Below, piece after piece: positions 3,025 to 50,161 of a stretch of 64,000 bases of DNA. The stretch lies in contig CANIZL010000018.1 in the NCBI GenBank assembly GCA_947471985.1, forward strand, positions 1 to 64,000. The letters run 5' to 3'. Positions within the stretch are counted from its first letter, which is position 1. Every line of letters begins with the position of its first letter. The DNA is from Verrucomicrobiota bacterium (GTDB lineage Bacteria; Verrucomicrobiota; Verrucomicrobiia; Limisphaerales; UBA9464). The translations under genes were made by a program, and so were the position numbers. The notes beneath the pieces were generated by a model. That model ran no database searches. It saw only the letters and a program-made list of their open reading frames with translations, and was not told where the DNA came from.

Positions 3025-3500
3025 GGCACCCCTTCCAACCATTCCCCCGTGCGCGGATTCGCGAGGCGCCACGAACCGTCCGGCTGCGTCTCAACCCGCC
3101 AGCGTGAACCGACCCGCGGGGTCGGCGGCTGGGTGGCACAAAGGAACCAGGGCACCTGATCGGGCGGACCGGATCGGCGTAAAAATCCAGAAAACCGGTC
3201 CGATCGCAGCGCCGAAGTAATCAACCAGGAATTGGTGGTGGTCCGCGCGCTGACCAGCGGCAGTCCCTGCTTGCTGAACTGCACGAACAGCGAGCCGTCC
3301 GAATGCCGGGCCGTCAGCAACTCGCCCGCCAATTCGGGAACCGCCGCCGCGGGGCGCCACACCGCTGCGGTTTCCCGGACCTGCCAGCCCGGCTGGCTCA
3401 GATCCGTGGGCGCATCCGAGACCACCCGGCACCCGGCACCGCCGAATATCGCGCCAGCCAGCAACAACAGGCTGATCGATGACCGGAACGGAGTCTTCAC
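3021..3500 (-). CDS. Small outer-membrane lipoprotein, LolA/DUF3261-like role
   Basis: This 159-residue protein starts with GTG at 3500, overlapping the stop of the oxidoreductase gene as GTGA, and ends by overlapping the GTG of the exporter gene. It has a short basic N-terminus, a hydrophobic segment (SLLLLAGAIF) and a cysteine after GGAG near residue 23 that could be a loose lipobox. The rest is rich in alternating hydrophobic residues and aromatics and ends WRLANPRTGEWLEG, suggesting a beta-rich LolA/LolB-like fold. Aryl-polyene clusters usually encode a LolA-like protein and a DUF3261 lipoprotein next to the MMPL exporter, and this gene sits in that slot. I could not recognise a family signature with certainty, so the role in carrying lipidated product to the outer membrane is inference from position. 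Confidence 0.7.
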   Translation of the reverse strand: MKTPFRSSISLLLLAGAIFGGAGCRVVSDAPTDLSQPGWQVRETAAVWRPAAAVPELAGELLTARHSDGSLFVQFSKQGLPLVSARTTTNSWLITSALRSDRFSGFLRRSGPPDQVPWFLCATQPPTPRVGSRWRVETQPDGSWRLANPRTGEWLEGVP

Positions 3501-4777: not shown

Positions 4778-5003
4778 CCAACCAGCGTCAGGGTGTCGCC
4801 CGCCGTGGCAAATCAAAATCCCGGCACGCCCCAATCAATCCCCGCCCGACCGGATCCTGTGTGCCTTTCCTGTCCAAAGGCCGGTCCGCCGCTAGCCCAA
4901 CTTTCGGCACTGGACCAAAATTTCGACAGTTTTCGGGCCGACCGGAAAACTCGGTGGAGGGGGGTACCGAGGGGGTCGGCCCACGCCTGCCCGGCGCAAC
5001 TCT

Positions 5004-6887: not shown

Positions 6888-6902
6888 GCCTTGAAGTACG
6901 AC

Positions 6903-8627
6903 ATGATGAAGACCTCACTCCGTTCATCCACCGTCGCCGCCCTTTGGTTGGCGGCGGGCTGGTTCCCGCTCACCTCGCTGGCTGCGGCGGCGAAGCCGAT
7001 TGATTTCAAACGCGATATCCGGCCCATCCTCGAAGTCAACTGTCTCTCCTGCCATGGCTCAGAGAAGAACAAGGGTGGCCTCCGGCTGCTGACCAAGGCC
7101 GATGCGGTCAAAGGCGGCGAGAACGGCACCAGCCTGGTGGACAAGAATCCGGCGAAGTCGCCGCTATATGTGTCCACCACCCTGCCGGCGGATAACGACG
7201 CCACGATGCCGCCCAAGGGTGATCGCCTCACGGCCGCCCAGCAGGGCGCGCTGAAGGAGTGGATCGAGCAGGGCGCCCCCTGGCCGGACGACGTCAAACT
7301 GGTGCAGCGCAAGAAGGTGGATTTCGTGCGCGACGTGCAGCCGATCCTGGAGTTCAACTGCGTTTCCTGCCATCGCGAAGGCAATCCCGAGGGCGATCTC
7401 CGCATGGACAGCGCACCGGAATTCTTCTCGCACAAGGCGATCGTGCGCGGCGATGCCCAAGCGTCCACCGTCTTCACCTCCACCGTTCTGGCCGCGGATC
7501 ACAAGGATCTGATGCCGCCCAAAAAGAAGAACGGCCCCTTGCCGGCGGAAAAGACCGACATCCTCCGCGAGTGGATTGATCAGGGAGCTCCCTGGCCGGC
7601 GGGCGTGACCCTGGTCGCCCGCAAGGCGGAGGAAGCGGGTCCGGCGAACGAGGGCGAAATCATCGCCGCGATGCACAAGGCCCTGCTGGAAAAGAACGAC
7701 GTCACCGACGCGGCGGCCATGAAGGCGTACACGGAGGATCTTCCGTGGGGTGGAGTTCAGTTTGATCTGGTGCCGATTCCCGCCGGAAAATTCGCGATCG
7801 GTTCGCCGGAGACCGAAGACAAGCGCAAGCCCAACGAAGGCCCCCAGCTGGAGCGGACCATCGAGCCCTTCTGGATGGGGAAGACCGAGGTCACCTGGAA
7901 CGAGTACGAGCAGTTTATGTACAAGGAGATTGAGTTCGCCGCCGTCGATCAGAGGAAGCCGAATCCGTACATCAACCCCACGGCCGATGCCGTGGCGCGT
8001 CCGACCAAGCCGTACGTGGAAATGAGTTTCGGCATGGGCAAGGGCGGCTTCCCGGCCATCTCCATGACGCATTTTGCGGCCGTGACCTACTGCAAATGGC
8101 TGTCGGCCAAGACCGGCCATTTCTATCGCCTCCCCACGGAAGCGGAATGGGAGTACGCCTGCCGCGCAGGTACGAAGACCAAGTACAGCTTCGGGGATGA
8201 CGAATCCAAGCTTGGAGAGTACGCGTGGTATTTCGCCAACGCCGACGGGAAGTATCAAAAGACGGGGACCAAAAAGCCGAATCCGTGGGGCCTGCACGAC
8301 ATGCACGGCAATGTCGCCGAATGGGTGCTGGATGCGTACGCGACCAACTACAACAACGCCGTGATTCCCTTCACCCCGGGCGTGAAGGAATACCCGCACG
8401 TCGCCCGCGGCGGCTCCTGGGATGACGAAGCTGATATTCTGCGGAGCGCGGCCCGCCGTTTTTCGAACCAAAACTGGAAGATGCGCGATCCGCAACTGCC
8501 CAAGTCCCGCTGGTACCTCACCGACGCCCAGTTCCTGGGCTTCCGCGTGGTTCGCCCGTTGAAGATTCCGCCGGCGGACGAAATTGCGAAGTACTGGACC
8601 AGCTTCACGCCGGTCAAGAAGCCGTAA
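6903..8627 (+). CDS. Secreted protein: two PSCyt1-type cytochrome c domains plus SUMF1/FGE-like domain
   Basis: I place the start at ATG 6903 (MMKTSLRSS), which gives a clean signal peptide ending LTSLAAAA; a TTG at 6891 is an alternative. Two planctomycete-type cytochrome c domains follow, with heme motifs CLSCH (about residue 49) and CVSCH (about 153), each ending in a (D)xMPPK segment and a LxEWIxQGAPWP tail. From about residue 284 comes a formylglycine-generating-enzyme-like (SUMF1) domain: FDLVPIPAGKFAIGSPE, YRLPTEAEWEYACRAG, NPWGLHDMHGNVAEW and LGFRVVR. SUMF1-fold proteins with heme domains are common in PVC bacteria and their role is largely unknown. The electron-carrying and C-type-lectin-like folds are visible, but sulfatase activation is not implied. 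It is a single gene closed by a strong terminator. Confidence 0.9.
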   Translation: MMKTSLRSSTVAALWLAAGWFPLTSLAAAAKPIDFKRDIRPILEVNCLSCHGSEKNKGGLRLLTKADAVKGGENGTSLVDKNPAKSPLYVSTTLPADNDATMPPKGDRLTAAQQGALKEWIEQGAPWPDDVKLVQRKKVDFVRDVQPILEFNCVSCHREGNPEGDLRMDSAPEFFSHKAIVRGDAQASTVFTSTVLAADHKDLMPPKKKNGPLPAEKTDILREWIDQGAPWPAGVTLVARKAEEAGPANEGEIIAAMHKALLEKNDVTDAAAMKAYTEDLPWGGVQFDLVPIPAGKFAIGSPETEDKRKPNEGPQLERTIEPFWMGKTEVTWNEYEQFMYKEIEFAAVDQRKPNPYINPTADAVARPTKPYVEMSFGMGKGGFPAISMTHFAAVTYCKWLSAKTGHFYRLPTEAEWEYACRAGTKTKYSFGDDESKLGEYAWYFANADGKYQKTGTKKPNPWGLHDMHGNVAEWVLDAYATNYNNAVIPFTPGVKEYPHVARGGSWDDEADILRSAARRFSNQNWKMRDPQLPKSRWYLTDAQFLGFRVVRPLKIPPADEIAKYWTSFTPVKKP

Positions 8628-9648: not shown

Positions 9649-9957
9649 GTGAGTGCACCAGAACCTACCGCCGGCGTGACGCCGACTGCCGGACCGATCC
9701 ATCGGCCCTGGCTGCCGCTCACCCGGATGCGGGCGGGTTGTGTGGTGATCATCCGACAGCTCACCGCCACACCGGACGTTAATCAGCGCCTGCGCGAACT
9801 GGGTTTCGTGGAGGAGCAGCGGGTCAAGGTGATCACCTTGCAGAACAACCTCCTGTGCCAGGTGTGCAACGCCCGACTGGGCTTGAGCGCGAAACTGGCG
9901 GAAACGATTCTGGTCGAACCCGCCGGCCCCACCCCGCCGGCGCGGCTGGCGGCCTGA
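9649..9957 (+). CDS. feoA: FeoA-domain protein, first copy
   Basis: This 102-residue protein starts at GTG 9649. After a proline-rich leader of about 22 residues comes a FeoA SH3-like domain: [33 protein letters not shown] and [13 protein letters not shown]. The pattern QRLRELGF is the family core. FeoA is thought to bind the cytoplasmic side of FeoB and tune ferrous-iron uptake. It is the first gene of a feoA-feoA-feoB operon and is 36 bases before the second copy. The CQVCN pair (residues about 68-72) is not usual in FeoA and could bind a metal or Fe-S cluster; that is inference. Confidence 0.88.
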
Positions 9958-9993
9958 GTCGTCCGTGCCAACCGAAATTTCCCACCGCCGTCC

Positions 9994-10227
9994 ATGAACC
10001 CCGTTCCCCTCGCCTCCCTCGCGCCCGGCACCAAAGCGGTCGTGACGGAAATCCGCATCCCTCCGCAGCAACGCTCCCGGTTGCTGGAAATGGGCCTGCT
10101 GGTCGGCACCACTGTCGAACTGGTCCGCTTCGCCCCCATGGGGGATCCGGTCGAATTGAAACTGCGCGGGTACAATTTGTCGCTGCGAAAACATGAGGCA
10201 GAGTTGGTCCTCGTCCGACCGGTTTAA
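9994..10227 (+). CDS. feoA: FeoA-domain protein, second copy
   Basis: This is a compact 77-residue FeoA with the full domain: [54 protein letters not shown] and a C-terminal ELVLV. The GDPVE.KLRGY.LSLRK half is better conserved than in the first copy, so this one is closer to the canonical regulator. Tandem FeoA domains are common in Gram-negative anaerobes and probably form a platform on FeoB. It is 21 bases before feoB and surely co-transcribed with it. Confidence 0.92.
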
Positions 10228-10248
10228 CCGGGGATTTTCCTGCGCCGA

Positions 10249-12432
10249 ATGTCTGCCTCCGCCCCATCGCCGGTCCCGCCTGCCTCCCGAGCCACACCCT
10301 TTACGGTGGTGCTGACCGGAAATCCCAACTGCGGCAAAACCACGCTGTTTAACGCGCTGACCGGTCTGCGGGCCAAAGTAGGCAACTACGCCGGCGTCAC
10401 CGTGGAGCGGAAGGAAGGTGCCTTGCTGGGCGCCAGCGCGGATCGTCCCATCACCATCCTGGATCTGCCCGGCACCTACAGCCTGAGCCCGCAGTCCCTT
10501 GATGAACAGATTGCCCGGGACATCCTGTTCCAACGCCTGCCCGAAGTCCCCGCCCCCGACTTGGTCGTGGTGGTCGTCGATGCCTCGAACCTGCAGCGCA
10601 ATCTCTACTACGCCACGCAGGTCGTGGAATTGGGCTACCCCACGGTGATCGGGTTGAACATGATGGACGTCGCCGAGGAAAACGGGCACGCCCTGGACCT
10701 GCCGGCGTTGTCGACCGCGCTGGGCGTCCCCGTGGTGCCGCTGGTGGCGAGTGAGCGGCAGGGCTTGGAAGAACTGCGCGCCGCCCTCCTGCAGGCGGCG
10801 CTGGGCCGACGCCCGGCAGTCCCCTCCTCCGCCGCACCGCGACAATTCCTGGAGTTGCCCGAGTCCTTTGGTCGCGAAGTTGAAGCGCTCATTCCCCAAC
10901 TGGAGGCCCATCGCCCCGGGCGTTCACGCCTCGCCGCGGCCGAAGCGGTCCTGTGGCTCAGCGACGACCATGTCCTCACCGGCCATCGCGATTACTATCC
11001 CGCCGGCATCCAATCCGCCGTGGCCGCCGCCCGCAGCCGGCTGGAATCAGCTCAGGTGGATTGGCGCAGCGCCGCCATCGAAGCCCGCTACGCCCGAATC
11101 CTGGCCATCCAACAACACGTCACCACGGAGACGGCTTCCGACGCCCCCAATTTCTCCGACCGGCTCGACACCATCCTGACCCATCGGATCTGGGGCATGG
11201 CCATCTTCGTGGCCCTGATGGGCGTGCTGTTCGTGAGCATTTTTTCGCTGGCGAAGTATCCCATGGAGGCGCTTCAGGCGGGGATCGGCTGGTTGGCGAA
11301 TCTCGTGGGCCAAGCGCTGCCCGCCGGCGACTTGAACGTCCTGCTGACCAAGGGAGTGATCAGCGGGGTCGGTGCCGTGCTGGTGTTTCTACCGCAGATT
11401 CTGCTCCTTTTCCTCTTCATCAGCCTGCTGGAAGACACCGGCTACATGGCCCGCGCGGCGTTCCTCATGGATCGACTGATGTCCCGCGTCGGCCTGCACG
11501 GAAAGAGTTTCATCCCGATGCTCTCGTCCTTTGCCTGCGCCATCCCCGGCATCATGGCGGCGCGGACGATCGAAACCCCCAAGGACCGGTTGGCGACCAT
11601 CATGGTGGCGCCGCTGATGAGTTGCTCGGCGCGCCTGCCCGTTTACACCGTCCTGATCGCCGCGTGCATCGGCGGGGGCGCGCTGCGACAAGGGGCCGTC
11701 CTGACCGCCATGTACCTGCTGGGCATCGTCGGCGCCCTGGGCATGGCCTGGATTTTCAAGCGCACCCTGCTGCGAGGCGAGCCGCCGCTCCTGGTGCTGG
11801 AATTGCCGCCGTATCGCCGCCCGGTCTGGACCGTGGTGCTGCGTCACATGTGGGATCGTTCCAAGTTGTTTGTCCGCCGGGCCGGCACCGTGATCCTCGG
11901 AATCAACATTCTCCTCTGGTTCCTCACCACCTACCCAAAACTCGACATACCGGCCGTCCCCTTCGATGCGCAAATTCCCGCCGTCGCGACCGGGGAAAGC
12001 GCGGCACTGCGGCACAGTTTCGCCGGTCGCTTGGGACACTTGATCGAGCCGGTCATCGCCCCGCTGGGCTTTGATTGGAAGATCGGCATCGGCCTGATCA
12101 CATCGTTTGCCGCCCGCGAGGTCTTCGTGAGCACGATGTCCGTGGTCTACAACATCGGCAACACGGAGGAAACCGGTGATGCCCATCAGGGTTTGGCGGC
12201 CGCCCTGCAGGCCGAGCGACGGATCGATGGCACCCCGATGTACACGCCGCTCACGGGCATCACCTTGATGGTCTTCTATGTCTTCGCGCTGCAATGCGTG
12301 AGTACGGTGTCGGTCGTGCGCCGGGAAACGAACGGTTGGAAGTGGCCGCTGTTTCAGCTCGCCTACATGACCTCGCTCGCTTGGGGCATGGCGTTCGCCA
12401 CTCACCTGATCGGGCGCCTGCTGGGCTGGTAA
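10249..12432 (+). CDS. feoB: Ferrous iron transporter FeoB
   Basis: FeoB imports Fe(II) through the inner membrane. The 727-residue protein has an N-terminal G domain with P-loop GNPNCGKTT (about 25-33), the NYAGVTVE switch I segment, DLPGTYSL (G3) and NMMD (G4). A helical linker follows to about residue 280, then the membrane part with two Gate domains ([20 protein letters not shown] and the region around [16 protein letters not shown]). The conserved [14 protein letters not shown] and [13 protein letters not shown] segments are present, including the cysteine of SCSARLP. It closes a feoA-feoA-feoB operon and ends 89 bases before a convergent gene. I saw no clear Fur or DtxR site upstream. 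Confidence 0.97.
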
Positions 12433-12521
12433 GCGCCGAATCCGCGACTCGGACGTCGGTGGCGAATGCCGGGCGGGGCTCGCCCCACCGAGGATCGATC
12501 CCGATCCCGAAATTCCGTCGG

Positions 12522-13436
12522 TCAGACGGAAGGGCGTTCGCGAGCCGCCGGCCAAAGCGCCAGCGTATCGAGCACCGCCCGAACCCGGGGCACTTCGTGC
12601 GTGCGATAGAGATCGGTCCGCCCCAAGGCCGCCAGTACCGCGAAAAACGGTTCGGCGCAGCGCACTTCCTCCCCGAACTTCTCGAAGGCGTGCGGCAGGG
12701 CGTGGCACACGGGCCATCCCAGTTTTCGCAGGCGATAGGTGTTGAGGAAAACCGTCATCTGATGCCGGATCCGCACCGCGGAATCCTGCAGATTCCGGTA
12801 GTAAAATCCGAGCCCGGGATCAATCCAGAGCCGTCGCACGCCCGCCCGCGTGGCCACTTCAATCTGGCGGGCGAAGTACTCGTACATCCCCGCCACCGGA
12901 TCGGCGGTGAAATCAAATTCGCCCACCTCCCGCACATTGGCGCCCAGCACGTAGCAAAGAATCACCGCCGCATCGTGATCCGCCACCTGACGGAACATCT
13001 CCTCCGAGCGATCGGTCCCGGTCAGATTCAGCACCCGGGCGCCGGCCTGCAAACAGGCGCGGGTGACCGTGGGATGATAGGTCTCCACCGAGATCAGCTT
13101 TCCGGCGCCGGCCAGATCGCGCACCACCGGAATCAACGCGGAAGTCTGAGCCGCTTCATCCACCCGGGCGGCGTGGGCGAGCGAGGACTCCGCCCCAATA
13201 TCGATGATATCCGCCCCCTGGGCCGCCAGCACGTGCCCCCGTTCAATCGCCGCCGCCGCCGATCCACAGACGCTTTCGCGATACCAGGAATCCACCGAAA
13301 GGTTGATGACCCCCATGATGGCCGGCCGGGCCTCGCCATCGAACCGGCGGCCCCCCAGATCGAACGCCGCCACTTGGGCGGACAAGGCCGCGGGGTCCTG
13401 CGCAATCAACGAGGCGAGAGATTCAAGACACAGCAT
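12522..13436 (-). CDS. Divergent dihydropteroate-synthase-like (pterin-binding) protein
   Basis: A 304-residue protein starting at ATG 13436 (MLCLESLASL); a TTG two codons earlier is possible. It has the TIM-barrel pterin-binding pattern of dihydropteroate synthase: IMGVINLSVDSWYRES where FolP has IMGILNVTPDSFSDGG, GADIIDIGAESS, ISVETY, the N of RVLNLTG, and WIDPGLGFYYRN for the IDPGIGF motif. The usual C-terminal GxSRK loop, which helps bind pterin diphosphate and pABA, is missing; CHALPHAF stands in its place. The final LYRTHEV matches the RVHDV end. It may be a paralogue with another substrate rather than a folate enzyme. No folate genes are adjacent, and it is convergent with feoB. Confidence 0.75.
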   Translation of the reverse strand: MLCLESLASLIAQDPAALSAQVAAFDLGGRRFDGEARPAIMGVINLSVDSWYRESVCGSAAAAIERGHVLAAQGADIIDIGAESSLAHAARVDEAAQTSALIPVVRDLAGAGKLISVETYHPTVTRACLQAGARVLNLTGTDRSEEMFRQVADHDAAVILCYVLGANVREVGEFDFTADPVAGMYEYFARQIEVATRAGVRRLWIDPGLGFYYRNLQDSAVRIRHQMTVFLNTYRLRKLGWPVCHALPHAFEKFGEEVRCAEPFFAVLAALGRTDLYRTHEVPRVRAVLDTLALWPAARERPSV

Positions 13437-15325: not shown

Positions 15326-15895
15326 TTACCTGCGCCGCAGGAATAGCAGCCCCCCAAGGCCGAGAGCGGCGAGCACATAGGTGCTCGGCTCGGGGCATAT
15401 CGGCAGGCAATTCGGTGGCCCGTAGGCTGCCAGATCAAAGCCCGTAAAGGCCGGGACGATGGGCGTGGGAAGGCCAGCGATGCCGTTGGCATCAACCACG
15501 CCGCCGAGCACGAAGGAGTGCAACGTTGTGGTTGCTTTCACCAACAGTGCAGCGTCGAAACTGAAACCAGCGTCTCCATCCCAAGCGCGGATCGTGATAT
15601 CCACCGTGCTACCACCCGGCTTACCGGGAACGGTGATGATTCCCTTGGAGAAGAGTCCGGCGTTGACACCACCCAGCGTGAGTTGAAAGGGATCGATCGT
15701 CGGTGCTCCGTTCACCAGGATTTGAACGAACACGTGGTCCGCAGCGACAACATTCACACCGTCAATGCTGATGCGTGGCTTGGTTCCCGTGGCCGTACTG
15801 GCAGAGAACGTTCCCTGAGCGGTGACGGAGGTGACGGCGGCGAAAAATGCGGCGCCAACGAGAATCAGTCCGTTGAGGCAATTCTTGAGGTTCAC
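15326..15895 (-). CDS. PEP-CTERM protein, tandem paralogue 2
   Basis: A 189-residue paralogue starting with GTG 15895 (MNLKNCLNGLILVGAAFFAA) with signal peptide and the same GTFSASTATGTKPRI beginning. It differs from its neighbours by a few inserted residues (FSFDAALLVKATTTLHS) and a longer linker with two cysteines (YGPPNCLPICPEPSTY) before the PEP-CTERM helix. The Cys pair could form a disulfide near the wall anchor; that is inference. It is about 90 bases upstream of paralogue 1 and downstream of the paralogue 3 terminator, so it probably has its own promoter. Confidence 0.85.
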   Translation of the reverse strand: MNLKNCLNGLILVGAAFFAAVTSVTAQGTFSASTATGTKPRISIDGVNVVAADHVFVQILVNGAPTIDPFQLTLGGVNAGLFSKGIITVPGKPGGSTVDITIRAWDGDAGFSFDAALLVKATTTLHSFVLGGVVDANGIAGLPTPIVPAFTGFDLAAYGPPNCLPICPEPSTYVLAALGLGGLLFLRRR

Positions 15896-16012: not shown

Positions 16013-16531
16013 TTACTTGCGGCGGAGGAACAGCAGGCCACCGAGGCCGAGAGCGGCGAGCGCGTACGTGCTCGGCTCAGGGGTGACCAACGTCAAGCCC
16101 GTGAAGGCCGGAACGATGGAGTTCGGGAGGCCGGCGATGCCGTTGGCATCCACCACGCCGCCGAGAACGAAGGAGGACAGCGTCGTGGACGCCTTCACCT
16201 TCGCGCTGTCGAAGTCAGCGCCCGTGTCCTTGTCCCAAGCGCGGATGGTGATGTCCACCGCGCTACCACCGACCTTACCGGCAACGGCGACAGTTCCCTT
16301 GGAGAAGAGACCGGCGTTCGCACCCGCCAGCGTCAGCTGGAAGGGGTCGATCGTGGCCGCTCCGTTCACGAGGATCTGAACGAACACGTTGTCAGCAGCA
16401 GCGACATTGGCACCGTCGAGGGTGATACGCGGCTTGGTTCCCGTGGCGGAACTCGCGGAGAATGTTCCCTGAGCGGAAACGGAGACGGCAGCGGCAAAAA
16501 ATGCCACACCAGCGAGGATAGCTTTATTCAT
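16013..16531 (-). CDS. PEP-CTERM protein, tandem paralogue 3
   Basis: A 172-residue exported protein starts at ATG 16531 (MNKAILAGVAFFAAAVSVSAQG) with a clear signal peptide. The middle DNVFVQILVNGAATIDPFQL, then TLAGANAGLFSKG and AVDITIRAWDKDTGADFD closely match the two downstream copies. It ends TPEPSTYALAALGLGGLLFL plus RRK, a PEP-CTERM sorting signal. It lies 31 bases after a different secreted-protein gene (16563-17231), so those two may be one transcript ended by the terminator at 15962. No exosortase gene is in the window. Confidence 0.88.
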   Translation of the reverse strand: MNKAILAGVAFFAAAVSVSAQGTFSASSATGTKPRITLDGANVAAADNVFVQILVNGAATIDPFQLTLAGANAGLFSKGTVAVAGKVGGSAVDITIRAWDKDTGADFDSAKVKASTTLSSFVLGGVVDANGIAGLPNSIVPAFTGLTLVTPEPSTYALAALGLGGLLFLRRK

Positions 16532-28547: not shown

Positions 28548-29954
28548 TTAACGGCCCGCTTCCGGCAGGACCACTTTCACGGCGTCAGCGATGGCGGGCA
28601 GCTTGTTGCGCACCGCCCGTCGGGCCGCCCCGAAGAGCAGCGTCTGCGTGCGCGGAGAGATGTTCAGGCGAGTTCCCACCTCCCGGGTGTATTCGGCCAG
28701 CTTCTTCGTGCTCTCACGGTCGTTTTCGATGTCATTGAAACCGATGGTGATGTGCCGCATGGGATACTCCGGCGTCAGCCGATTAATCTCATCCTCCTGC
28801 CATTGAATTTCGTTCTCGTAGCCGGCATGCCAGGACTCCAGCGGCAGATTGGCGGCATTCAACACCTGGTTCAACAACCGGGGCGGCAGGCGCCGGGAAC
28901 TGAAGGGCGCCGGGTCCCTCTGATACGCGTCGATCACGATCAAAAGCTTCCGCGTCCGCGCATGGACGGAATTGGTGAGCAGATGCATCGCCGTCAGGAC
29001 TCCGAGATTGTCCCCCACCCCGCCATCCATCAAATGCAGGTACGTCGGCGTGGGCGCCCGCAATCCCAAGGTGGTGGCCGGGATCACGCCGGGAAAGCTG
29101 GCACTCGCCTTGACCGCCACGGAAACCGGGAAGTCATAGACGTTGGACAGCGAATGCCAGTGCCGCCGGTGGCTGTAACCATTGACCCCCAGTCCGCTGA
29201 GCGTGTCGGGCGCCAGGGGCAGGATCGCCCCGTTGCCGACGGTCGTGGCGTTGGGAAACCAGTAGGGCATCATCGGCGGCGTGGTCGCTCCAGCCGGCAC
29301 AAAGAAGTCGCCGAACTTCAGACTGCGATCCGCCGCCCCGTGCAGGAGCCGCCGATCGAGAGAACTCTGCAGGGTGTCGCCCCGATCCTGCACGCCAAGA
29401 TTGCGCGGATCCAGCAGCCCCCAGATGAACGCCTGAAAATTGTGCCGCAGCGCAATCCGCAGCGGGCTGGCATCCTCGGCTTTATCCCCGGACTCGGATT
29501 CGGCGCCGTCCCAACCCCGCCACAACGCCCGGGCAAAACGGAAGCTTTCCGGATCATGCCCCAGTTCCCGGTCCCGCTGTCGTGCCGCCAGGTACGCGCC
29601 CGCCGCGATGCCCCCGCCCGACACGGTCGAAAAATAATCCACCTCGCGCAGCAGATTGAAGGGGCGTCCCTCGATCCGGACCTGTTCCAGTTCCCGCAAT
29701 ACGGCCGCACCAAAATTTGCCGCCCGCATGCCGCCGCCGGAGATGCACACCACCACGGTCGCCCCGGCCGATTGACCCGGCCGCGCATTGACCGGGGCGT
29801 ACTGGGAGAGATCCGGCGCCACCTCGCCCCCGGTCCATCCCGACGGCCAGACCGCCGGCGGGGCCAGTGGTGTTCGGGCGGTGGACGGATGAGTGACGCA
29901 ACCGGCGACTGCGCCCGCCAGCAGCAGACACATCGCCCCCAAAACGCTCCGCAT
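28548..29954 (-). CDS. Patatin-like phospholipase lipoprotein
   Basis: The start is ATG 29954 (MRSVLGAMCLLLAGAVAGC), a lipoprotein signal peptide with Cys at residue 19; a TTG five codons earlier is possible. The 468-residue protein carries the patatin elements: oxyanion loop CISGGGMRAANFG, the nucleophile elbow region FSTVSGGGIAAGAY, and the Asp of the dyad in LMDGGVGDNLGV. It is likely a serine acyl hydrolase acting on lipid in the periplasm or at the outer membrane. Patatin-like lipoproteins in Gram-negatives can be secreted or membrane enzymes; substrate unknown. It follows nth by 83 bases on the same strand. Confidence 0.85.
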   Translation of the reverse strand: MRSVLGAMCLLLAGAVAGCVTHPSTARTPLAPPAVWPSGWTGGEVAPDLSQYAPVNARPGQSAGATVVVCISGGGMRAANFGAAVLRELEQVRIEGRPFNLLREVDYFSTVSGGGIAAGAYLAARQRDRELGHDPESFRFARALWRGWDGAESESGDKAEDASPLRIALRHNFQAFIWGLLDPRNLGVQDRGDTLQSSLDRRLLHGAADRSLKFGDFFVPAGATTPPMMPYWFPNATTVGNGAILPLAPDTLSGLGVNGYSHRRHWHSLSNVYDFPVSVAVKASASFPGVIPATTLGLRAPTPTYLHLMDGGVGDNLGVLTAMHLLTNSVHARTRKLLIVIDAYQRDPAPFSSRRLPPRLLNQVLNAANLPLESWHAGYENEIQWQEDEINRLTPEYPMRHITIGFNDIENDRESTKKLAEYTREVGTRLNISPRTQTLLFGAARRAVRNKLPAIADAVKVVLPEAGR

Positions 29955-30037
29955 GGACAAGCTCTTCAAACGGCCCGCAGCCTATCGTTCCCCCATTCGA
30001 AGGAAAGCCATTGTGCCTGGCGGGATCGAACCGGTTT

Positions 30038-30761: not shown

Positions 30762-31067
30762 TTACTGCGGCCCGGCGAAGTCGTACACGACCACCTTGCG
30801 CCAGAATTGGCGGTTCTTGGCCACGAATTCCAGATGCCGCGGATGCACCTGATAGTCATCCTGGGTCTGCTTGTCGGGAAAAATGAGGTTCAAAGCGACC
30901 TGGTAGGACTGATCCACCACATCGCGCGGACTGCCCACCATTTTGCCCACATGGAATTGGAGCAATCCCGGAATGGTCTTCAGGTATTCATGGCAACCAG
31001 CCACCAGTTGATCAGCCGCCTGCGGATTCGCCGGATCGGTCCAAAAAATAACGACGTGTGAAAACAT
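30762..31067 (-). CDS. Dabb (stress-responsive A/B barrel) family protein
   Basis: A 101-residue protein starts MFSHVVIFWTDP and has the Dabb pattern: an N-terminal HVVIF strand, a long helix with PGLLQFHVGK, a central SYQVALNLIFPDKQ and HPRHLEFVAKN, and the final VVVYDF. These are dimeric ferredoxin-like barrels, often of unknown role and sometimes linked to stress or ring cleavage. It lies 102 bases after a CE15-like esterase and 28 before nth. I cannot assign a substrate. Confidence 0.85.
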   Translation of the reverse strand: MFSHVVIFWTDPANPQAADQLVAGCHEYLKTIPGLLQFHVGKMVGSPRDVVDQSYQVALNLIFPDKQTQDDYQVHPRHLEFVAKNRQFWRKVVVYDFAGPQ

Positions 31068-31169: not shown

Positions 31170-32495
31170 TCACTTTTCCCGCAACCACCGATCCGCAAAC
31201 GCCAGGCACTGTTCCCAGTCGTACGGCAGGACGTCGTGATTGCCGGGGCGGACATGATACCCCAGACGTCCCAGCGCTGAAACTCCCGGCGCCGGCGGCC
31301 GGTTCGTCGGCAACCCGTCCCCGCTCAGCAGGCGATAAACCGGATCCGCCCCCACCAACGCGGCAAACTCACCCGCCGGATCCGCCCCGGAATCCTCCAC
31401 GGCGCTGGCCACGTAAACCGGGCGGGGAGCAATCAAGGAAATGAGTTCGTGCTGATCAAACGGCAGCGTCGCATCGCGATCGTTGTAGGCGCGGAAATTG
31501 GCGGCGTACCAGTGCGGAAATACGGTGTTGAGCCGCCGGATCTTTTCGCCCGTGTCCCGGCGGAACAATTTGGCCCCGCCCGCGCCGGATTCATTGCTGA
31601 AGACAAGCGCAAAGCGCTCATCATTGGCGGCGGCCCACAGCGCCGCCTTGCCGAGGCGGGACCAGCCAAACAAACCGACCCGGCGCGCGTCCACGGCCGG
31701 CAGCGTTGCCAGACAATCCATCGCCCGACTCAAGCCCCACGCCCACGCCCCCATGGCCGTGAAATTGTCCCCGCGACCCTGCAATTCCGGATAGGCCTGA
31801 TGCAGCGCATTGGTGAACTCATTGGGAAAGTCCGGATGCAGGTCCCCCCGATACACCGTCGCCAGGCCGTATCCCCGACGCAGGATCTCCGTCACCGGCC
31901 ATTGACGCGCATTCAGTCCCCGACACGCCTCCGTGGCCCGGTGATTGGTGACGCACGAAAGGTCCGCGTAATAGGTCTTTCCCGATTCCATCCAGGTGCG
32001 GGACAGCCGGATCGCCGGATCGGGATGAATGGCGTGATTTCCCCAAAAATTCAGGGCCAGGATGACCGGCACCGGTTGGGAAACTGCGGCGGGACGATAC
32101 AACAGCAGATCCATCGAGGGCCCGTCCGCGGCCCGCGTAAAATGGATCCGAAACTGCTGGCGCACGGCCAGGCCGTCCAGCGCCCGCGAATCCGACTCCA
32201 GCAATTCGAAACGCAGCTCGGCGGGTCTACCCGGCATCCGTCCATACATTTCGCGGGCGAAAAGCTCCCGCAATTCCGCCCGCCGAGGGGACCAGTCCGC
32301 CGGCGTGGTGATCACCGTCCCGTCGGTTCGCCGAAGCGGATCCGGCAATCCCGCCGGCAATCCCACCGCCGCCGGCAGCTCGCCAGCACCGAGTGCGCCG
32401 CACCCAATACCGACCAGCGCCAGCAGAGCCACGGCCACCCGGCCACAGCGCTCCAACCCAAAACTCCCCGGCAAAAGCCGCCGGAAGGAACTCAT
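31170..32495 (-). CDS. Exported CE15-like glucuronoyl esterase/alpha-beta hydrolase
   Basis: A 441-residue protein with a signal-like N-terminus (GRVAVALLALVGIGCGALGA). The nucleophile motif is GWSRLGKAAL with Ser279, where CE15 glucuronoyl esterases have G-C/W-S-R-x-G-K. A conserved Glu302 (FSNESGAGGAKLFRR) and His420 (HVRPGNHDVLPYDW) would complete the triad. LPFDQHELISLIAPRPVYVA is also a CE15 hallmark. CE15 enzymes cut the ester between glucuronoxylan and lignin; several studied members come from Verrucomicrobia and Acidobacteria. Its start overlaps the stop of the upstream dehydrogenase gene (ATGA), so the two are coupled. Activity on other uronate esters is possible. Confidence 0.85.
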   Translation of the reverse strand: MSSFRRLLPGSFGLERCGRVAVALLALVGIGCGALGAGELPAAVGLPAGLPDPLRRTDGTVITTPADWSPRRAELRELFAREMYGRMPGRPAELRFELLESDSRALDGLAVRQQFRIHFTRAADGPSMDLLLYRPAAVSQPVPVILALNFWGNHAIHPDPAIRLSRTWMESGKTYYADLSCVTNHRATEACRGLNARQWPVTEILRRGYGLATVYRGDLHPDFPNEFTNALHQAYPELQGRGDNFTAMGAWAWGLSRAMDCLATLPAVDARRVGLFGWSRLGKAALWAAANDERFALVFSNESGAGGAKLFRRDTGEKIRRLNTVFPHWYAANFRAYNDRDATLPFDQHELISLIAPRPVYVASAVEDSGADPAGEFAALVGADPVYRLLSGDGLPTNRPPAPGVSALGRLGYHVRPGNHDVLPYDWEQCLAFADRWLREK

Positions 32496-35116
32496 TGAAA
32501 CCCGACGGTCAGCAGTTCAGCCACATACCCCGCACCAGCTCCCTGAACCACAATATAGACCGGGCGGATCCCCTGCTTGGCGGCGGCGGGGCCGTTCACG
32601 TTCACGAGTTTTCCCACGGCATTGCCGGCCAATTCACCCTGCATCCACAGCTCGCCGTCCGGAGCGTCCAGCCGCGCCTCCAAGCGCACGGCGCCGGCGG
32701 TAAGATTGCGACCGCGCAGGCGCAGTTCCCGCACCTGTTCCAGATTGATCCGGTCGAAGCGGAACCAGCCACCGGACTCCACCCGGGTCACGAGCCCATC
32801 ACCGAGATTCTCCTGCGACGAAACCTTCGTCGCCGCGTCGAAGTGAGCGGCGCGTTGCTGCCGCGTTCGGAGGGCCACGATGGATTCACCCCGCAGCGCC
32901 GGCACGGCGCCCTGCGCATGATCGGTCGCCGCCGCCGTCCACACCAACACGCCGGACGCATTGCGCTCGTTGGCGCCCAAAGCGGTGGCCGGACGGAATT
33001 CGCCGTGCAGGCCCGCGGGTTGGGTCAAGACCTGGCGCGCCGCCAGTCCCAAAACCCAGTCCACCATCTGCCGGGCTTGATCCGGGGTGTACTGGGGATT
33101 CGGCGGCATGGCGACCTGCCCCCAGGAACCCAGCCCGCCGGAGATGATCTTCTTGGCCAGAATCTCCCGGGCGGCGGCATTCGTCGCGTAACGCCGGGCC
33201 ACTTCCAGATAGGGCGGTCCCGCCGATTTGTCAGCCGCCGCGTGACACCCAAAGCACGTGCCATTCCGCATCAGCGCGCCACCGGGATGCCCCGTCACCG
33301 CGTCGCCTTCAACGAGGCGGTCGCGTCGCTCGACCTGCACCATCACCGCGTTCGGCGCCAGCGCTCCATCCTCGGCATCCTGCGCCGTGACGTCCCAGGT
33401 CAGCGGCTGCTTCCAATCGAAGAAGCCACCGTCCACCGGCGCGGTGATCCGCACTTCCGGCGGCGAATTCCCCGCCACCACCGGCAACCGGGCCACGCTG
33501 CGGGCGCCCGCGGGATCGGTCACTTCAACCAGCACCAGCCAACGACCGGCCTTCGTGAAGACATGCTCGACCTCACGACCTTCAGCCGTGCCGCCGTCCG
33601 GAAACCGCCACTTGTACGTCAAGGCATCGCCATCGGGGTCTTGCGACGCGGCTGCCGTCGCCTTCAGGGTGAAGGGCAATCGGCCCGCCGTCACCGCTGC
33701 CGCCGCCCGGGCCAATGGCGCCCGGTTTCCGCGGCGATACACGCAGCGCACGATTTGCCCGTCCCGGTTGTTACCGAACTTGTCGCCGTACTCCACGACG
33801 TACAACGCGCCCTCCGGTCCGAGCTTCAGGTCCGTGGGTTTGCGGAAAACCGTCCCGGGCATGAAGGACTCCAAAGCCTCCATTTTCCCGTCCGCCGACA
33901 ACCGCACCACCTTGATCCAATTCCGCATCCATTCGGCAAAAATCAGGCAGCCGTCGAGCGACTGCGGCAGCTTCACCTCGGAAGCGAGCTGGGGATCGAA
34001 ATGATAGATCGGTCCGCCGGTGATGCTGCGGCCGCCGGAGCCGAGCTCGGGCCAGATCGGCGACGCCACGGTGGGATAATAGAGGATGGCTGGCCGCGCC
34101 TCGGGCAGTTCCCGCAGCCCGGTGTTCCCCCGCGAATCGTTGACGACATGCCGGGGATCAAAAGGCTCGCCCGTCGGCTTCTTCGTCGCCGGATCAAAGG
34201 TTCGCCAGGCCGCATTCGGTCCGCTCATGAAGGGCCAGCCATAAAATCCCGGGGCCTTCGCCAGATTGATCTCGTCGTAGCCTTCCGGGCCCAGCCCCAG
34301 GGTCGGATCGACATTGCCGCCGACATCGCCCCAGACAATCCAGCCCGTCTTGGGATCGGCGAAAATGCGGAAGGCATTACGGATGCCCATCGCAAACACT
34401 TCCGGCCGCCCCACCTTGGCGTCGGTAAACATATTGCCCGAAGGAATGGTGTACGACCCATCCGGCCGCGGCGTGATCCGCAGAATCTTACCCCGCAGAT
34501 CCTGCGAATTGGCCGACGAACGCCGGGCATCGAAACGTTCCTTGCCCGGGGACGGATCGAACGCCGGCACATCCTGCGGCGGCGTGTTTTCGCCGGAACC
34601 GATCACCAAATTGCCGTCCCGATCCCATTTCAAATCGCCACCGCAATGGGGCGGCTCCTCCGTATCGATGGCCCATTCCAAAATGGCTTTCTCGGACTTC
34701 AAATCCACCGCTCCGCCTTGGAGCGTGAACCGCGACACCCGCATGACGAGATGCTTGTCCTCGGGACAGCGCAGGGTGTAAAAATGTCCGGACGTGGCAA
34801 AATCCCGCGCCAGCAGCAATGACAAAAGCCCGGTATCCCACGCCACGTGGGTCGGCAGCTGGGCCAACTCGGTGGTGAGGCGGGTTCGGGGATCCCAGGT
34901 TTTGAATCCCCCCAGGCGCTCCACAAAGTAAAGGCGCCCATCGGCGACGACCTCCACCGACACGGGATCGTTGGCGGCGGTCACCAGCACTTCCCGTTCC
35001 CAGCGGGCCGGATCCAAGGTCTCGGCCGCGCCGGCGGACGGTGTTTGCAGGACGCCGACAATTGCGCAGAGCGCCGCCCAAGGGAATCGCCAAACCGGCG
35101 ACGAGGTTGATGCCAT
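32492..35116 (-). CDS. Secreted sugar-dehydrogenase-like beta-propeller with PKD, cytochrome c and C-terminal sugar-binding-like domain
   Basis: The start is ATG 35116 ([20 protein letters not shown]) with a signal peptide ending GAAE. Residues about 30-450 form a PQQ-dependent sugar-dehydrogenase-type propeller: VYFVE-like [47 protein letters not shown], and [18 protein letters not shown]-type domain follows at about 470-545 ([20 protein letters not shown]), then a cytochrome c with CFGCH near residue 622 and an AMPPNPQ methionine ligand. The last 140 residues look like a CBM6/NPCBM beta-sandwich. Such fusions are known in PVC bacteria and Bacteroidetes; quinone use is inference. The stop overlaps the start of the CE15-like gene. 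Confidence 0.88.
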
Positions 35117-35254
35117 GGCGAAGCATTTAGCGTCCACCGACCCAGCTGGCGAGTCCCGGCGTGGGAAAACTGTGTGGGAGGGAGGGGCTGGGTCGCCCGC
35201 GATCGCGCCGCCGGGGCCCAAATCTCCGGCACCTTCAATTCCTCCCGAATCTCG

Positions 35255-45370: not shown

Positions 45371-48300
45371 CTAATCCCAGGTACCGGGGACTTCGTAGAG
45401 CCCGAACCACCGCTGGCTCGCCGCCGCCCCACCGGTAAGTTCAAAGCGGATCCAGTCCCCCGCCCCGGCGGACCCACCCGACTCCAGCTCAATTTCCAGG
45501 ATTCCGCAGCTGTCCTCGGCGTTCTGCTCGCGAACCGCGTACCGGGCCCGAACCCGCCCGTCCGTGCTGGACCAGGCGGCGTCCTCCACGGTGGCCTCCA
45601 GCAGAACCTCCGCCTGGTCGTGCACCCGCAGGCGAAAGCTCCCGGCGGGTTGGGAAACCAAGCCCGCGGCCACGGCAAAGCGAAAGCGTTGGCGACCCGG
45701 CGTTGATCCCGGCAGCGCTCGCGCTTCCCACTGCGCCCGGGAACGTCCGTCCGTTTGCCGGCAATACCGCAGGGGCAGCGGGCTTAACCACGAGGCATAC
45801 GGAAGCACCGGCTCGGTGACCGTCATCCGGCGGACCCGGCTGACGCCTTGCGTGGTCAGTTCGCGTTGAGCCACCAATCCCGCCGCCACGCCGGTGCCGC
45901 CAAACGGCGCGGGCGTGGACCGCAGCCACTGGATCAGTGCGGCCACCTCGTCCCGCGTCAGCACCTGCTCCAGTCCCTCGGGCATCAGGGAACGCTCCGC
46001 CGCGCTGATCCGGCGGATATCCCGCCGGGCCAGCGCCTCCTCGCCCCCGCCACTCGGCCGCAGCGTGAATCCCGCCGTCGATTCGCCGTCCACAATTCCC
46101 GTGAGCGTCCGGCCATCCCGCAACTCCACAATCTGGGCGGTAAAACGGGGTTCGATGGCCGAGTTGGGATCAAAGATCGCCTGCACGAAATCGGCCACTG
46201 GCTTGGCGCGAAACGTCATCAGATCCGGCCCCACCGGATGCCCAATGCCCCGCAAACGGTGGCACGCCGAACAATTCTTCTCGAACACCGGCAACCCCTG
46301 TTCCGGGGACGCGCGGGTCGGATCGATGTCCGCATACGCGGCGACCACCGCCGTCCGATTCGCGGCGGTCGGTGGGAGGACCTTCGCGGCGCGCGCCCGG
46401 AAGTCCGGGCTCGTTTTCGTCCGCCACGCCTGACGTTGTCCGGGCGACAAATCCGCCGCGGCCACCTCACCGCGTTCGAGGGCTCCCAGCAATTCCCGCT
46501 GAAAGGCCTCCCGTGAAAACAGCAATCCCAACCGCTCGGCCCGGGCCGCCGGCCCCAGCGTCGCCCAACCCGACAGTAGTTGGGCAGGCAGGTCGGAGGA
46601 TTCCACCGGCCGGAGGGCCACCAGCACCTGCTCATGAACCGCCGCCGGCAAGGGCTCTCCCAACAAATTCACCAGGTCCTTGATCGATTCCGCCGTCCGT
46701 TCCTGCCCCAACACGGTACCCGCCGCCAACCGGGACTCCAACGGCGCCTGCGCATCCAGCAGCACCGGACGCGCGCGGTTTCGCAGGGTCGACGCCCACC
46801 GGGTCCAAGCCGGCACCGCCGTCGGGGCCGCCGTGAGGCGCTCCATCAATCCCGGCACTGCAGCCAGAAGTCCATACCAGCGAAACGCTTCCGCTTCGGC
46901 CCCCGCCGCACCGATCTCCCCGCCCGGGAAACGCAGCTCCGTGACCTGTTGGCAGAGTTCGACGTCCCCCCGCCCCGCCACCGTGCGCCACACGTCGGCC
47001 GAGAATTCCGGGACCGCCACCGCCGAAGACCGCCGAACCACTTCCAGCAAATCCGCGGACGATGCCGCACCCAGTGCCGCGACCACGGCCGCGCGTTGCC
47101 AGGAGTTCGTCAATTCCCGCCGCACCAGCCGCGGCAGCATCCCGCGCACCAACTCGGACGACGGCGACGGGCCCTGCAACCGCCCGACGGTCAGCGCGAA
47201 TTGATAACGGACTCCCGCATCGGCGTCGTCGGCCAGGGCCGCGAAGTCGGCGCCGTTTGCCGGACGGACGGAAAGCGGAGCCTCGATCAAGGGCAGGATT
47301 GCCCGTCGAACACGGGGGTCCGGATGGTGCAGTTCCTCGGTGATCATTGAAGTACCACCGGACGCGGCGCTTTCCGTGCCCCGGAGCCATTCCCACTGCA
47401 CCAGTGCAGCCGGAGCCAAGGTGGGCAAGGCGGCCTGAACCGCGGCCAAGGAAAGCGGGGGAGCCGATCCATCCCCGCGACGGGTCGCCTGCAAACGGCG
47501 TCGCACCTCCCGATCCGCGAGATCCCGCAGAGGCCCGGCGTCGGACGCCAAATGTGCGGCCAGCTCCGCCACCGCCGCCTGCCGCACATTCGGCAGTTTT
47601 CGCGGCGGCGAGCGATCCGCCGCCACCCGGTAAATCCGTCCCCGCCCCGCCCCCGCCCGCGGATCCAGGTTCTTCAATCGTTCGGCCGGGATCCAGCGCG
47701 GATGCTCCACGACGAACCGGTAAAAATCCACCACCCACAAAGCCCCGTCCGGTCCCGTGCGCACTTCGACCGGACGAAACCAATTGTCGCTCGACGCCAG
47801 GAACTCCGACCGCGGTTCGCCGTCGGCCCGGCGCGCGCCAAACAACGGCCCCTCGGCCTCCAGCACGGCCCGCCGCACCAAATTGTGCACCGGTTCACAC
47901 ACAAACGCGTTGCCGTAATACTCGGGACCGAGATCCGTCGCCCGGTAAATTTCCGGACCGCACGCCGAGGTCAGCCGGTTGGCCGATCCGAAATCATTGA
48001 ACCGCTCCAAAGTCCGACTGCGCGGAAAAACCCGTCCGGGATCCGTCCCCCGCACCAGCGGGACTCGCGGCGTGGGGGGAGCGACGAACGGATTCAGCTG
48101 CGTGTAGGCGTCCGGAAACGGGAATTGCGCCAGCAGCGTGCTGTTGTCGTTGCCGAACCAATTTCCGAAATCATCCCGCGTGCGGCCCTGCTGGCTGACC
48201 CCCGCCAAACTTTCAAATTCCCCCGTCTCGGGACGAAACCGAAAATCGCGTCCGGAACAGTCCCACGTTTGATTCTTCTGCGTCCCGTGAATCTGGCCGC

Positions 48301-50161
48301 CGAACAATCCGCCCGCGCCGTAGATCCAGCCGTCATAGCCCCAGCGAAATCCGTTCACGCGAGCTTGAAAATTATGCGTGGCAAATCCGGAAAAGAGCAC
48401 CGACTTCCGCGTTGGCCGCTGCTTTAGCGGCCCGGTACCGACGGCCGCGCCCGCGCCCGCCCCCGGAAGCGGCTGGAGCCACACAATGTCCGGCGCCGCT
48501 CCGACCAACACGCCGTCGCCCCAAGCCATAAGCCCCGTCGGAAACGGCAGATCGTCCGCCCAAGTCTCAGACTGATCGAACCGACCGTCGCCGTCGGTAT
48601 CCAGCAGCCGCACGATCCGTCCGCCCGGTTGGCCTTTTCCGTCCAACCCTTCTGGATAATCCCGCATTTCCGCAACCCACAATGAGCCGTCCGGACCGAA
48701 ATCCAGCGCCACGGGCGACTGCACCAAGGCATCCCCGGCGACCAGATCAATGCGCAGACCCGGACGCGTCCGCAGCACCTGCAACGACGCTTCCGGCTCC
48801 AGCGGCGGCGGATGCTGCAGCGCCCCCGCATCGGCCAAAAACGACGCGGGCAGTTGCTCGCGCACGGTCTGCACGATGAGATCCTCGATCCCCGGAGCCA
48901 ACTGCTGCGGACGATCGTAGTACCACAAGGACGATTCCGCCTCGTACCCCCCTTCCCGCAAAATCCGACGCGACGGGATATAGCACGGAACATCGTTCAC
49001 GTAGCCATTCACCCACAAACGCCGGGGATCGAGCTCCTGCTTCAAGCGCAGGGAATAATCGACCACCACCTCGCCGCCGAGAAACACCATCGCCAGCGTA
49101 TCGCCGAAAACCCACGTCTGGACCGGATACGGTAGTGTTGGCGACGGCAATTCCCCCCGATCCACCCGCGCGAGCCATTTGCGGGCGTGGTACCCAACGA
49201 TCCCGGAATTCGTCGCCCGGGCCGCCCACTGCTCGCGGGTGAAGTGCGTTTGAAAGGGAAGCTGAATGGTTTCCAGCCGGCACCGCGGGGCGTTGGTGAT
49301 TTCCGTCAGGTCCTGCCGCACCAGCGCGCCCGCTTCCCGGGCCAGTTCGCCGCCGTGGCGCTCCACCAGCGCCAACGTTCCCCGCGGATCCGGATTCGCG
49401 TCGGCACCACAGCCTATGGCGACCAGGGCCACCGCCCCCGGCCAGGCGGCCTCCAATTCCCGGGCGCAAACCCCATTCCAATCCGGATGCGTCTGGTTGA
49501 AGTCGCCGAGCGTGGTGCAATGGCAGGCGTAGTTGAGCAACACTCCCCGGACGACCCCTTCCGGGGAAAGAATGCGCAGCAACGGCACGTCGTGATCCAC
49601 CGGCCCACCCGGGGTCCGCCGATTTGCCGCAAAGCCCACGCGTCCGACGCCCCACGCCACCCGCGCCGGCTGGCGATTGCTGAGGGCAGAAAGGGCTACC
49701 GCCACGAGTTGATCGGTAAAGAAACGCGTATAGGCCTGAATATGCCGGGATTCGTTGGGCGGGATGTCCTCGACGAAAAGGTTCGGGGCAGCCCCGGCGA
49801 GGGTGGGCGCATTGTGAGTGTGACTGACGGATATCGCCACACGCTCGGGAGCCACGCCCGCGACGGCCTGCAACCGCGCCCGCACCGTCGCTGTGATGGC
49901 GCCCGGGAGGATGCAGTTGTCCGCCGTCAGCAAGACCGCCACATCAGCCCCGGCCCCCAGCGCCAGCGCCCGGGCGTGGATGGCCGAGTGCACGTTGGTG
50001 GATTCCGTGTGCCGCGACGCGTAGCCCATCAACCGGATGGGCTCCGTGGGATTGATCTCCACCCGTGCCAATCCCACCGGCAGAAGGGCGGCCGCGAAGA
50101 CCCGCCCGGACGTGGCAAGCGCCAGTAATCCGAGCCAACCAGCAAAGCGAGAGAGATTCAC
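45371..50161 (-). CDS. Giant secreted fusion: neutral-ceramidase-like domain, PVC-type propeller, HEAT-like region, cytochrome c, C-terminal domain
   Basis: A 1,596-residue protein starting with GTG 50161 (MNLSRFAGWLGLLALATSGR) with a signal peptide. Residues about 25-455 resemble neutral/alkaline ceramidase: LLPVGLARVEINPTEPIRLM at the start, the metal-binding SHTHNAPTLAGA and NYACHCTTLGDFNQTHPDW. About 465-950 is the PVC-type membrane-bound-dehydrogenase propeller (LDFGPDGSLWVAEMRDYPEG, DTDGDGRFDQSE). A helical repeat region follows, then cytochrome c with CSACH near residue 1295 in the form NCSACHRLRGIGHPVGPDL, typical of the Pirellula/Verrucomicrobium-type heme domain. The last 180 residues are a beta-rich domain I do not recognise. 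The ceramidase half may act on polysaccharide or lipid; activity is not shown by sequence. It is divergent from rpsA. Confidence 0.88.
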   Translation of the reverse strand: MNLSRFAGWLGLLALATSGRVFAAALLPVGLARVEINPTEPIRLMGYASRHTESTNVHSAIHARALALGAGADVAVLLTADNCILPGAITATVRARLQAVAGVAPERVAISVSHTHNAPTLAGAAPNLFVEDIPPNESRHIQAYTRFFTDQLVAVALSALSNRQPARVAWGVGRVGFAANRRTPGGPVDHDVPLLRILSPEGVVRGVLLNYACHCTTLGDFNQTHPDWNGVCARELEAAWPGAVALVAIGCGADANPDPRGTLALVERHGGELAREAGALVRQDLTEITNAPRCRLETIQLPFQTHFTREQWAARATNSGIVGYHARKWLARVDRGELPSPTLPYPVQTWVFGDTLAMVFLGGEVVVDYSLRLKQELDPRRLWVNGYVNDVPCYIPSRRILREGGYEAESSLWYYDRPQQLAPGIEDLIVQTVREQLPASFLADAGALQHPPPLEPEASLQVLRTRPGLRIDLVAGDALVQSPVALDFGPDGSLWVAEMRDYPEGLDGKGQPGGRIVRLLDTDGDGRFDQSETWADDLPFPTGLMAWGDGVLVGAAPDIVWLQPLPGAGAGAAVGTGPLKQRPTRKSVLFSGFATHNFQARVNGFRWGYDGWIYGAGGLFGGQIHGTQKNQTWDCSGRDFRFRPETGEFESLAGVSQQGRTRDDFGNWFGNDNSTLLAQFPFPDAYTQLNPFVAPPTPRVPLVRGTDPGRVFPRSRTLERFNDFGSANRLTSACGPEIYRATDLGPEYYGNAFVCEPVHNLVRRAVLEAEGPLFGARRADGEPRSEFLASSDNWFRPVEVRTGPDGALWVVDFYRFVVEHPRWIPAERLKNLDPRAGAGRGRIYRVAADRSPPRKLPNVRQAAVAELAAHLASDAGPLRDLADREVRRRLQATRRGDGSAPPLSLAAVQAALPTLAPAALVQWEWLRGTESAASGGTSMITEELHHPDPRVRRAILPLIEAPLSVRPANGADFAALADDADAGVRYQFALTVGRLQGPSPSSELVRGMLPRLVRRELTNSWQRAAVVAALGAASSADLLEVVRRSSAVAVPEFSADVWRTVAGRGDVELCQQVTELRFPGGEIGAAGAEAEAFRWYGLLAAVPGLMERLTAAPTAVPAWTRWASTLRNRARPVLLDAQAPLESRLAAGTVLGQERTAESIKDLVNLLGEPLPAAVHEQVLVALRPVESSDLPAQLLSGWATLGPAARAERLGLLFSREAFQRELLGALERGEVAAADLSPGQRQAWRTKTSPDFRARAAKVLPPTAANRTAVVAAYADIDPTRASPEQGLPVFEKNCSACHRLRGIGHPVGPDLMTFRAKPVADFVQAIFDPNSAIEPRFTAQIVELRDGRTLTGIVDGESTAGFTLRPSGGGEEALARRDIRRISAAERSLMPEGLEQVLTRDEVAALIQWLRSTPAPFGGTGVAAGLVAQRELTTQGVSRVRRMTVTEPVLPYASWLSPLPLRYCRQTDGRSRAQWEARALPGSTPGRQRFRFAVAAGLVSQPAGSFRLRVHDQAEVLLEATVEDAAWSSTDGRVRARYAVREQNAEDSCGILEIELESGGSAGAGDWIRFELTGGAAASQRWFGLYEVPGTWD

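Follow-up and report, generated by a model that had tools for sequence, protein, structure and literature searches.

Two overlapping reverse-strand genes

Two overlapping genes were found near the middle of the window, the 64,000-nucleotide stretch of Limisphaerales (Verrucomicrobiota) DNA that was analysed; both, and all features of them given below, are on the reverse strand. The first (32492..35116) encodes an 874-amino-acid protein in which a GSDH propeller, a PKD domain and a cytochrome c are fused, with a weakly CBM6-like region at the C-terminus, as delimited from the open reading frame and its Pfam matches; translation from an alternative TTG at 35221 would lengthen it to 909 amino acids. 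The second (31170..32495) encodes a 441-amino-acid alpha/beta hydrolase of the CE15 (glucuronoyl esterase-like) type, predicted to be exported and recognised from its open reading frame, Pfam and PDB matches. The stop codon of the fusion gene and the start codon of the CE15 gene share the sequence ATGA at 32492..32495; this overlap had been reported in the initial annotation, and it was confirmed together with both reading frames.

Co-transcription of the two genes is plausible from the overlap. The four-base overlap itself is nothing special, since another occurs in the same window (60178-60181) and a relative of the CE15 gene shares such an overlap with another gene altogether (locus L094, 8048-8051). 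The pair is followed on the same strand by a Dabb (A/B barrel) gene, identified by domain match (30762..31067), which is possibly a further member of the transcript; its domain match and position do not show a functional link to the pair. What we take to be an endonuclease III-like gene also follows on this strand. The pair is divergent to neighbouring genes including YidD and KH/R3H, and presumably also to an L34-like open reading frame and RnpA-like and YidC-like genes. A promoter scan found none, with 0.6 expected, and terminators were at chance level (7 found, 5.8 expected). Other genes in the window include a tryptophan-halogenase-like flavoprotein (3497-4834, -), two adjacent paralogs with 71% identity over 167 columns, each ending in a PEP-CTERM motif (15326-15895 and 16013-16531, -), and a patatin-like phospholipase whose N-terminus looks lipoprotein-like by eye (28548-29969, -).

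Domain architecture and distribution of the fusion

The fusion opens with a putative hydrophobic export signal, assigned by eye (residues 1-30; 35027..35116). The part of the six-blade propeller that matched the Pfam GSDH profile (107.1 bits, cut-off 25) spans residues 49-311 (34184..34972), and is followed by a PKD domain at residues 464-540 (33497..33727; PKD_4, 59.2 bits, cut-off 27) and a c551/c552-like class I cytochrome c at residues 612-691 (33044..33283; Cytochrom_C, 28.4 bits, cut-off 21.3). The cytochrome carries both a CxxCH motif (residues 621-625; 33242-33256) and, by alignment, an axial methionine, Met670 (33107-33109). A phmmer search against PDB sequences returned c551/c552 cytochromes, collagenase PKD domains and the soluble aldose dehydrogenase 2ISM. 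The C-terminal region (residues 756-868; 32513..32851) resembled CBM_6 at 18.6 bits, below the 28.9 cut-off, although four of eight members of the fusion family matched that profile at E<=0.01 (best E 3e-13). The secreted propeller, PKD, cytochrome and sugar-binding-like arrangement originally proposed for this protein was therefore upheld for its three Pfam-matched domains; its sugar-binding part fell short of the profile cut-off, and its export is judged by eye.

An AlphaFold model built from eight sequences had a mean pLDDT of 63 and a pTM of 0.51. Because the model was poor, no pocket geometry was taken from it, and its Foldseek matches (HHIP at the top; also TTHA0570, i.e. 2ISM, and sGDH) are good for the propeller class only.

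Taken on its domain matches, the GSDH-PKD-cytochrome c fusion is a widespread and already known type of architecture. The window's own genome held 21 GSDH matches (about 19 genes), and three of its open reading frames, the window's and two paralogs (contigs C18, C46 and C3), matched the fusion from propeller through cytochrome. A match to the fusion protein was present in 126 of 146 genomes of the order, many to the propeller alone; matches running from propeller through cytochrome were counted by hand in at least 17 of the 146, among the matches listed. A scan of genome contigs added 10 relatives, from Planctomycetota, Verrucomicrobia, Larkinella, other Bacteroidota-type groups, a Rhodothermaceae bacterium and one genome labelled Kuenenia; all eight members scanned for domains (the window's and seven of those 10) contained GSDH, PKD and cytochrome c. 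Our literature search found neither a published activity for any close member nor a cofactor test of the family. Two further cytochrome fusions occur in the window: a 1596-amino-acid protein (45371-50161, -) that starts with a ceramidase-like part, scoring below the cut-off, and goes on with DUF7133 and cytochrome c, and a planctomycete-type cytochrome (PSCyt1) joined to a sulfatase-modifying-factor-like (FGE) domain (6891-8627, +).

Active site and cofactor of the fusion

Full fusions were collected from 51 loci, of which 15 proved to be repeat fetches, leaving 36 distinct places: the window and 35 others. The heme-ligating residues C621, C624, H625 and M670 were invariant in all 36. The same was true of H157, R246 and N247, the counterparts by alignment of the His and Arg-Asn used in catalysis by sGDH-type enzymes. 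The roles of these last three residues are described in PMC6881789 and PMC6881810, and their presence is what would be expected of a PQQ-dependent GSDH protein. The DEIN-type loop of the propeller is also kept.

The C-terminal arginines were a different matter. Where 2ISM has two of them, at the apparent places of sGDH Arg406 and Arg408, the window fusion has K426 and T428, according to a weak local alignment (residues 424-429, a 2.4-bit match to 2ISM). On that same weak alignment, position 428 was Arg in none of the 36 fusions, and position 426 was divided among Arg (17 fusions), Glu (12), Lys (six) and Ala (one). The motif was matched in only some of six loci from the window's own genome and was unusable as a control. 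R363 and R398 are invariant in the fusions and could substitute for the PQQ-carboxylate anchors.

The PQQ synthesis gene PqqC had no match in the window's genome, in a search that was positive elsewhere in the order: four of the 146 genomes (G008, G010, G019 and G107) were above cut-off, and none of these was among the at least 17 listed with a full fusion. No PqqE was over cut-off in the window's genome, nor in any control genome. PQQ is a candidate cofactor for the fusion; dependence on it is unproven, as PqqC was not matched and the apparent anchor place is never Arg in the 36 fusions.

These observations raise the question of whether the family is PQQ-dependent at all, or whether PQQ binding has been lost or changed and the propeller uses another cofactor or acts as a binding or electron-relay module. 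The absence of Arg at position 428 in all 36 fusions, its presence at 426 in no more than 17, and the distribution of PqqC would fit such a loss, as would HHIP being the nearest fold to the low-confidence model; to our knowledge, HHIP is a signalling propeller without enzyme activity. There is also a precedent in Teredinibacter, where PMC10916295 describes a domain (pf08450-X173) of a secreted cytochrome protein whose nearest sequence matches are annotated as PQQ-dependent GSDH, and which neither binds PQQ nor oxidises glucose. However, the catalytic His, Arg and Asn are invariant and the DEIN-type loop is retained, and the motif comparison at residues 424-429 depends on a 2.4-bit match. Moreover, fungal AA12 enzymes that lack equivalents of sGDH Arg408 and Lys377 still bind PQQ (PMC6881789), and PQQ can be scavenged from outside, as in E. 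coli (PMC6881810). On balance, a family that does not depend on PQQ is considered unlikely.

The CE15 esterase

The 441-amino-acid protein matched the Pfam GCE_fung profile at 108.6 bits (cut-off 27), and the OtCE15A structure was its phmmer match in the PDB (E 2e-117). Its N-terminus resembles an export signal by eye. Alignment to OtCE15A placed the nucleophile in the motif GWSRLGK (residues 277-283; 31647..31667), which supplies Ser279, Arg280 and Lys283, and the catalytic histidine at His420 (31236..31238). E302, E317 and D368 are present as well. Ser279, His420, E302, D368 and Arg280 make up the Ser-His-acid and oxyanion Arg set of the family, and Lys283 and E317 belong to the pocket; in OtCE15A numbering, Phe141, Ser267, Arg268, Lys271, Glu290, Glu305, Val313, Asp356, Ala359 and His408 are all kept. 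The earlier assignment as a CE15-like esterase is therefore sound at the level of family, to which both the profile match and the catalytic residues assign the protein; we do not extend the name 'glucuronoyl esterase' to its activity.

Two of the positions compared differ from OtCE15A: Lys183 is replaced by Gln198, and Trp358 by Gly370 (31386..31388). According to PMC6069808, Trp358 hydrogen-bonds to the 2-OH of glucuronate and is conserved in every CE15 enzyme characterised by 2018; a 2024 paper on PvCE15 (PMC10807430) likewise places it with the residues that bind the uronate and are highly conserved. Trp occupies this place in 34 of 36 CE15 relatives of the window esterase. The exceptions, L032 (His) and L033 (Gly), are its two closest relatives (about 61% identity), and the next, L034 (57%), keeps Trp. 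Loss of the residue therefore seems to mark a small CE15 branch.

The replacement suggests that the esterase may act on something other than a glucuronoyl ester, such as an acetyl ester, or the ester of another uronate or of an algal polymer. MZ0003 offers a comparison: its activity as a glucuronoyl esterase is low, and it hydrolyses other esters (PMC4951047). The surroundings of the three closest relatives also speak for this reading: they are dissimilar, and include an adjacent FMN oxidoreductase, a nearby BamB-like propeller, and an alginate lyase-like gene and a Gfo/Idh/MocA oxidoreductase lying alongside. Against this, the pocket residues F150, K283 and E317 are kept, with Q198 in the place of Lys183. 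We regard a different ester as a serious possibility that falls a little short of even odds, and it is compatible with the explanation preferred below. In locus L095, a 1085-amino-acid frame (9913-13170, +) joins CE15 and GDSL esterase domains and is followed by an alginate lyase-like gene.

One GH10 gene was found in the window's genome, whereas GH67 and GH115 had no match there in searches for which control genomes were positive for each. These two families are the alpha-glucuronidases that would release the uronate after de-esterification. Because GH10 is present but GH67 and GH115 were not matched, use of glucuronoxylan by this organism is not well supported.

The pairing is not conserved

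No CE15 match (E<=1e-4) was found near any of the 35 other distinct fusion loci within the flanking DNA examined, which ranged from almost nothing at contig ends to 10 kb, came to some 1.5 kb at many of the loci, and extended only 69 bp downstream at L012 and 116 bp at L079. One of these loci carries a 77% ortholog of the fusion in another genus of the same family (G155:C89:116220-118766). No CE15 gene occurs in 9.2 kb downstream or 4.9 kb upstream of it, and the locus has no other gene in common with the window save a weak lamin-tail match. Conversely, no GSDH gene was found near any of 36 CE15 relatives (flanks of up to 1.5 kb), nor within 17-20 kb of the three closest, and no other close GSDH/CE15 pair was seen by eye among the matches listed. 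A conserved fusion-CE15 operon was therefore rejected. Seven genes adjoining or close to the fusion at four other loci were also compared in search of a common partner; these were CotH/LTD, cNMP-binding, sulfatase, CBM48-esterase, propeller-like and unmatched genes, and none was shared.

A hand estimate was made of how often such genes would adjoin by chance, taking about 19 GSDH and about 5 CE15 genes among an assumed total of about 5,500. By this estimate the two kinds of gene would adjoin in any arrangement with a chance of a few percent, and in the same-strand downstream position with a chance of about 1%; no correction is included for the many other pairs of families that might have caught the eye.

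The two enzymes had been proposed to form a functional pair. In such a scheme a glycan carrying a uronate would be released by the esterase from lignin or some other ester, and the sugar so freed would be oxidised at the surface by the dehydrogenase, with electrons passing to its tethered cytochrome. The ATGA overlap on a shared strand, the export-type N-termini seen by eye on both proteins, the CE15 catalytic residues and the GH10 match are consistent with this, but the adjacency is not conserved, GH67 and GH115 were not found in the genome, and the uronate-contacting Trp is replaced by Gly. After a CE15 enzyme has cut the ester, the uronate is still attached to the polymer, and CE15 alone would therefore not provide the dehydrogenase with an aldose. 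The functional pair was thus not supported, and we consider it improbable; adjacency is all that speaks for one enzyme using the product of the other. Given the ATGA overlap and predicted export of both proteins, it would still be conceivable to have a recent functional pair in this one lineage, as the window's genome (6.4 Mb) is the sole member of its genus in the sample (1/1).

Interpretation

The preferred account of the locus is that it holds two proteins of known families, both predicted to be exported, that lie together only in this lineage as far as seen; we give this a probability of roughly 70%. As their relatives do not keep the genes together, the fusion and the esterase are probably ordinary neighbours and not a dedicated pair. 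The fusion would most likely be a surface or periplasmic quinohemoprotein-like oxidoreductase, whose GSDH propeller may use a bound cofactor to oxidise a small aldose or a comparable hydroxyl substrate. If this cofactor is PQQ, it would be taken up from outside, since no synthesis gene was found. The tethered c551-type heme would pass the electrons onward, and the PKD and CBM6-like domains may space and anchor the protein. The esterase would be a serine hydrolase of family CE15 whose sugar pocket has changed, and its target an ester in a polymer that contains uronate or in a related one.

A bolder version would see in the GSDH-PKD-cytochrome c proteins of Verrucomicrobiota, Planctomycetota and Bacteroidota a class of exported propeller-cytochrome redox proteins that has so far gone unrecognised, using a cofactor other than PQQ in hosts not making PQQ, with one member co-expressed here with a Trp-less CE15 enzyme that cuts a different ester. 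We hold it to be a long shot.

On the preferred account of ordinary neighbours, the locus illustrates that one-genome adjacency with an ATGA overlap is weak evidence for a two-enzyme pathway when the ortholog and the other fusion loci examined lack the partner. It also draws attention to a common exported propeller-cytochrome family that is annotated as PQQ dehydrogenase although the carriers examined had no PqqC match. This family and a CE15 sub-branch without the Trp thought to recognise uronate may both be of use to specialists.

Comparison with known systems

The propeller of the fusion shares its fold, catalytic His, Arg-Asn and DE(I/V/L)N loop with the soluble aldose dehydrogenases (TTHA0570, 2ISM; E. 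coli Asd, 2G8S; sGDH, 1CQ1). In contrast to the fusion, these are single-domain proteins, and the paired C-terminal Arg of 2ISM is not kept in the fusion.

A propeller, a cytochrome and a carbohydrate-binding module are also combined in the fungal AA8-AA12-CBM1 pyranose dehydrogenase CcPDH (PMC6881789), and the catalytic His and Arg-Asn common to CcPDH and bacterial GDHs are kept in the window fusion, with the likeness to AA12 judged by the residues named in that source. As described there, CcPDH differs in having a cytochrome b where the fusion has a c551-type cytochrome c, in its domain order and in having no PKD domain.

Secreted proteins in which CBMs are joined to CxxCH cytochromes are likewise described for Teredinibacter (TERTU_3803 and TERTU_2567) and Cellvibrio (Cbp2D/E), with GSDH-like domains in the two Teredinibacter proteins. 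TERTU_3803 differs from the fusion in its propeller (pf08450-X173), which does not bind PQQ, and in its hemes (X183/X132), according to PMC10916295.

The esterase is most readily compared with OtCE15A of Opitutus terrae (PDB 6grw/6syr). It has Gly370 for Trp358 and Gln198 for Lys183, whereas the E 2e-117 match extends over residues 49/50-439, and the catalytic Ser, His and Glu, the second Asp, the oxyanion Arg and the pocket Lys and Glu are all present.
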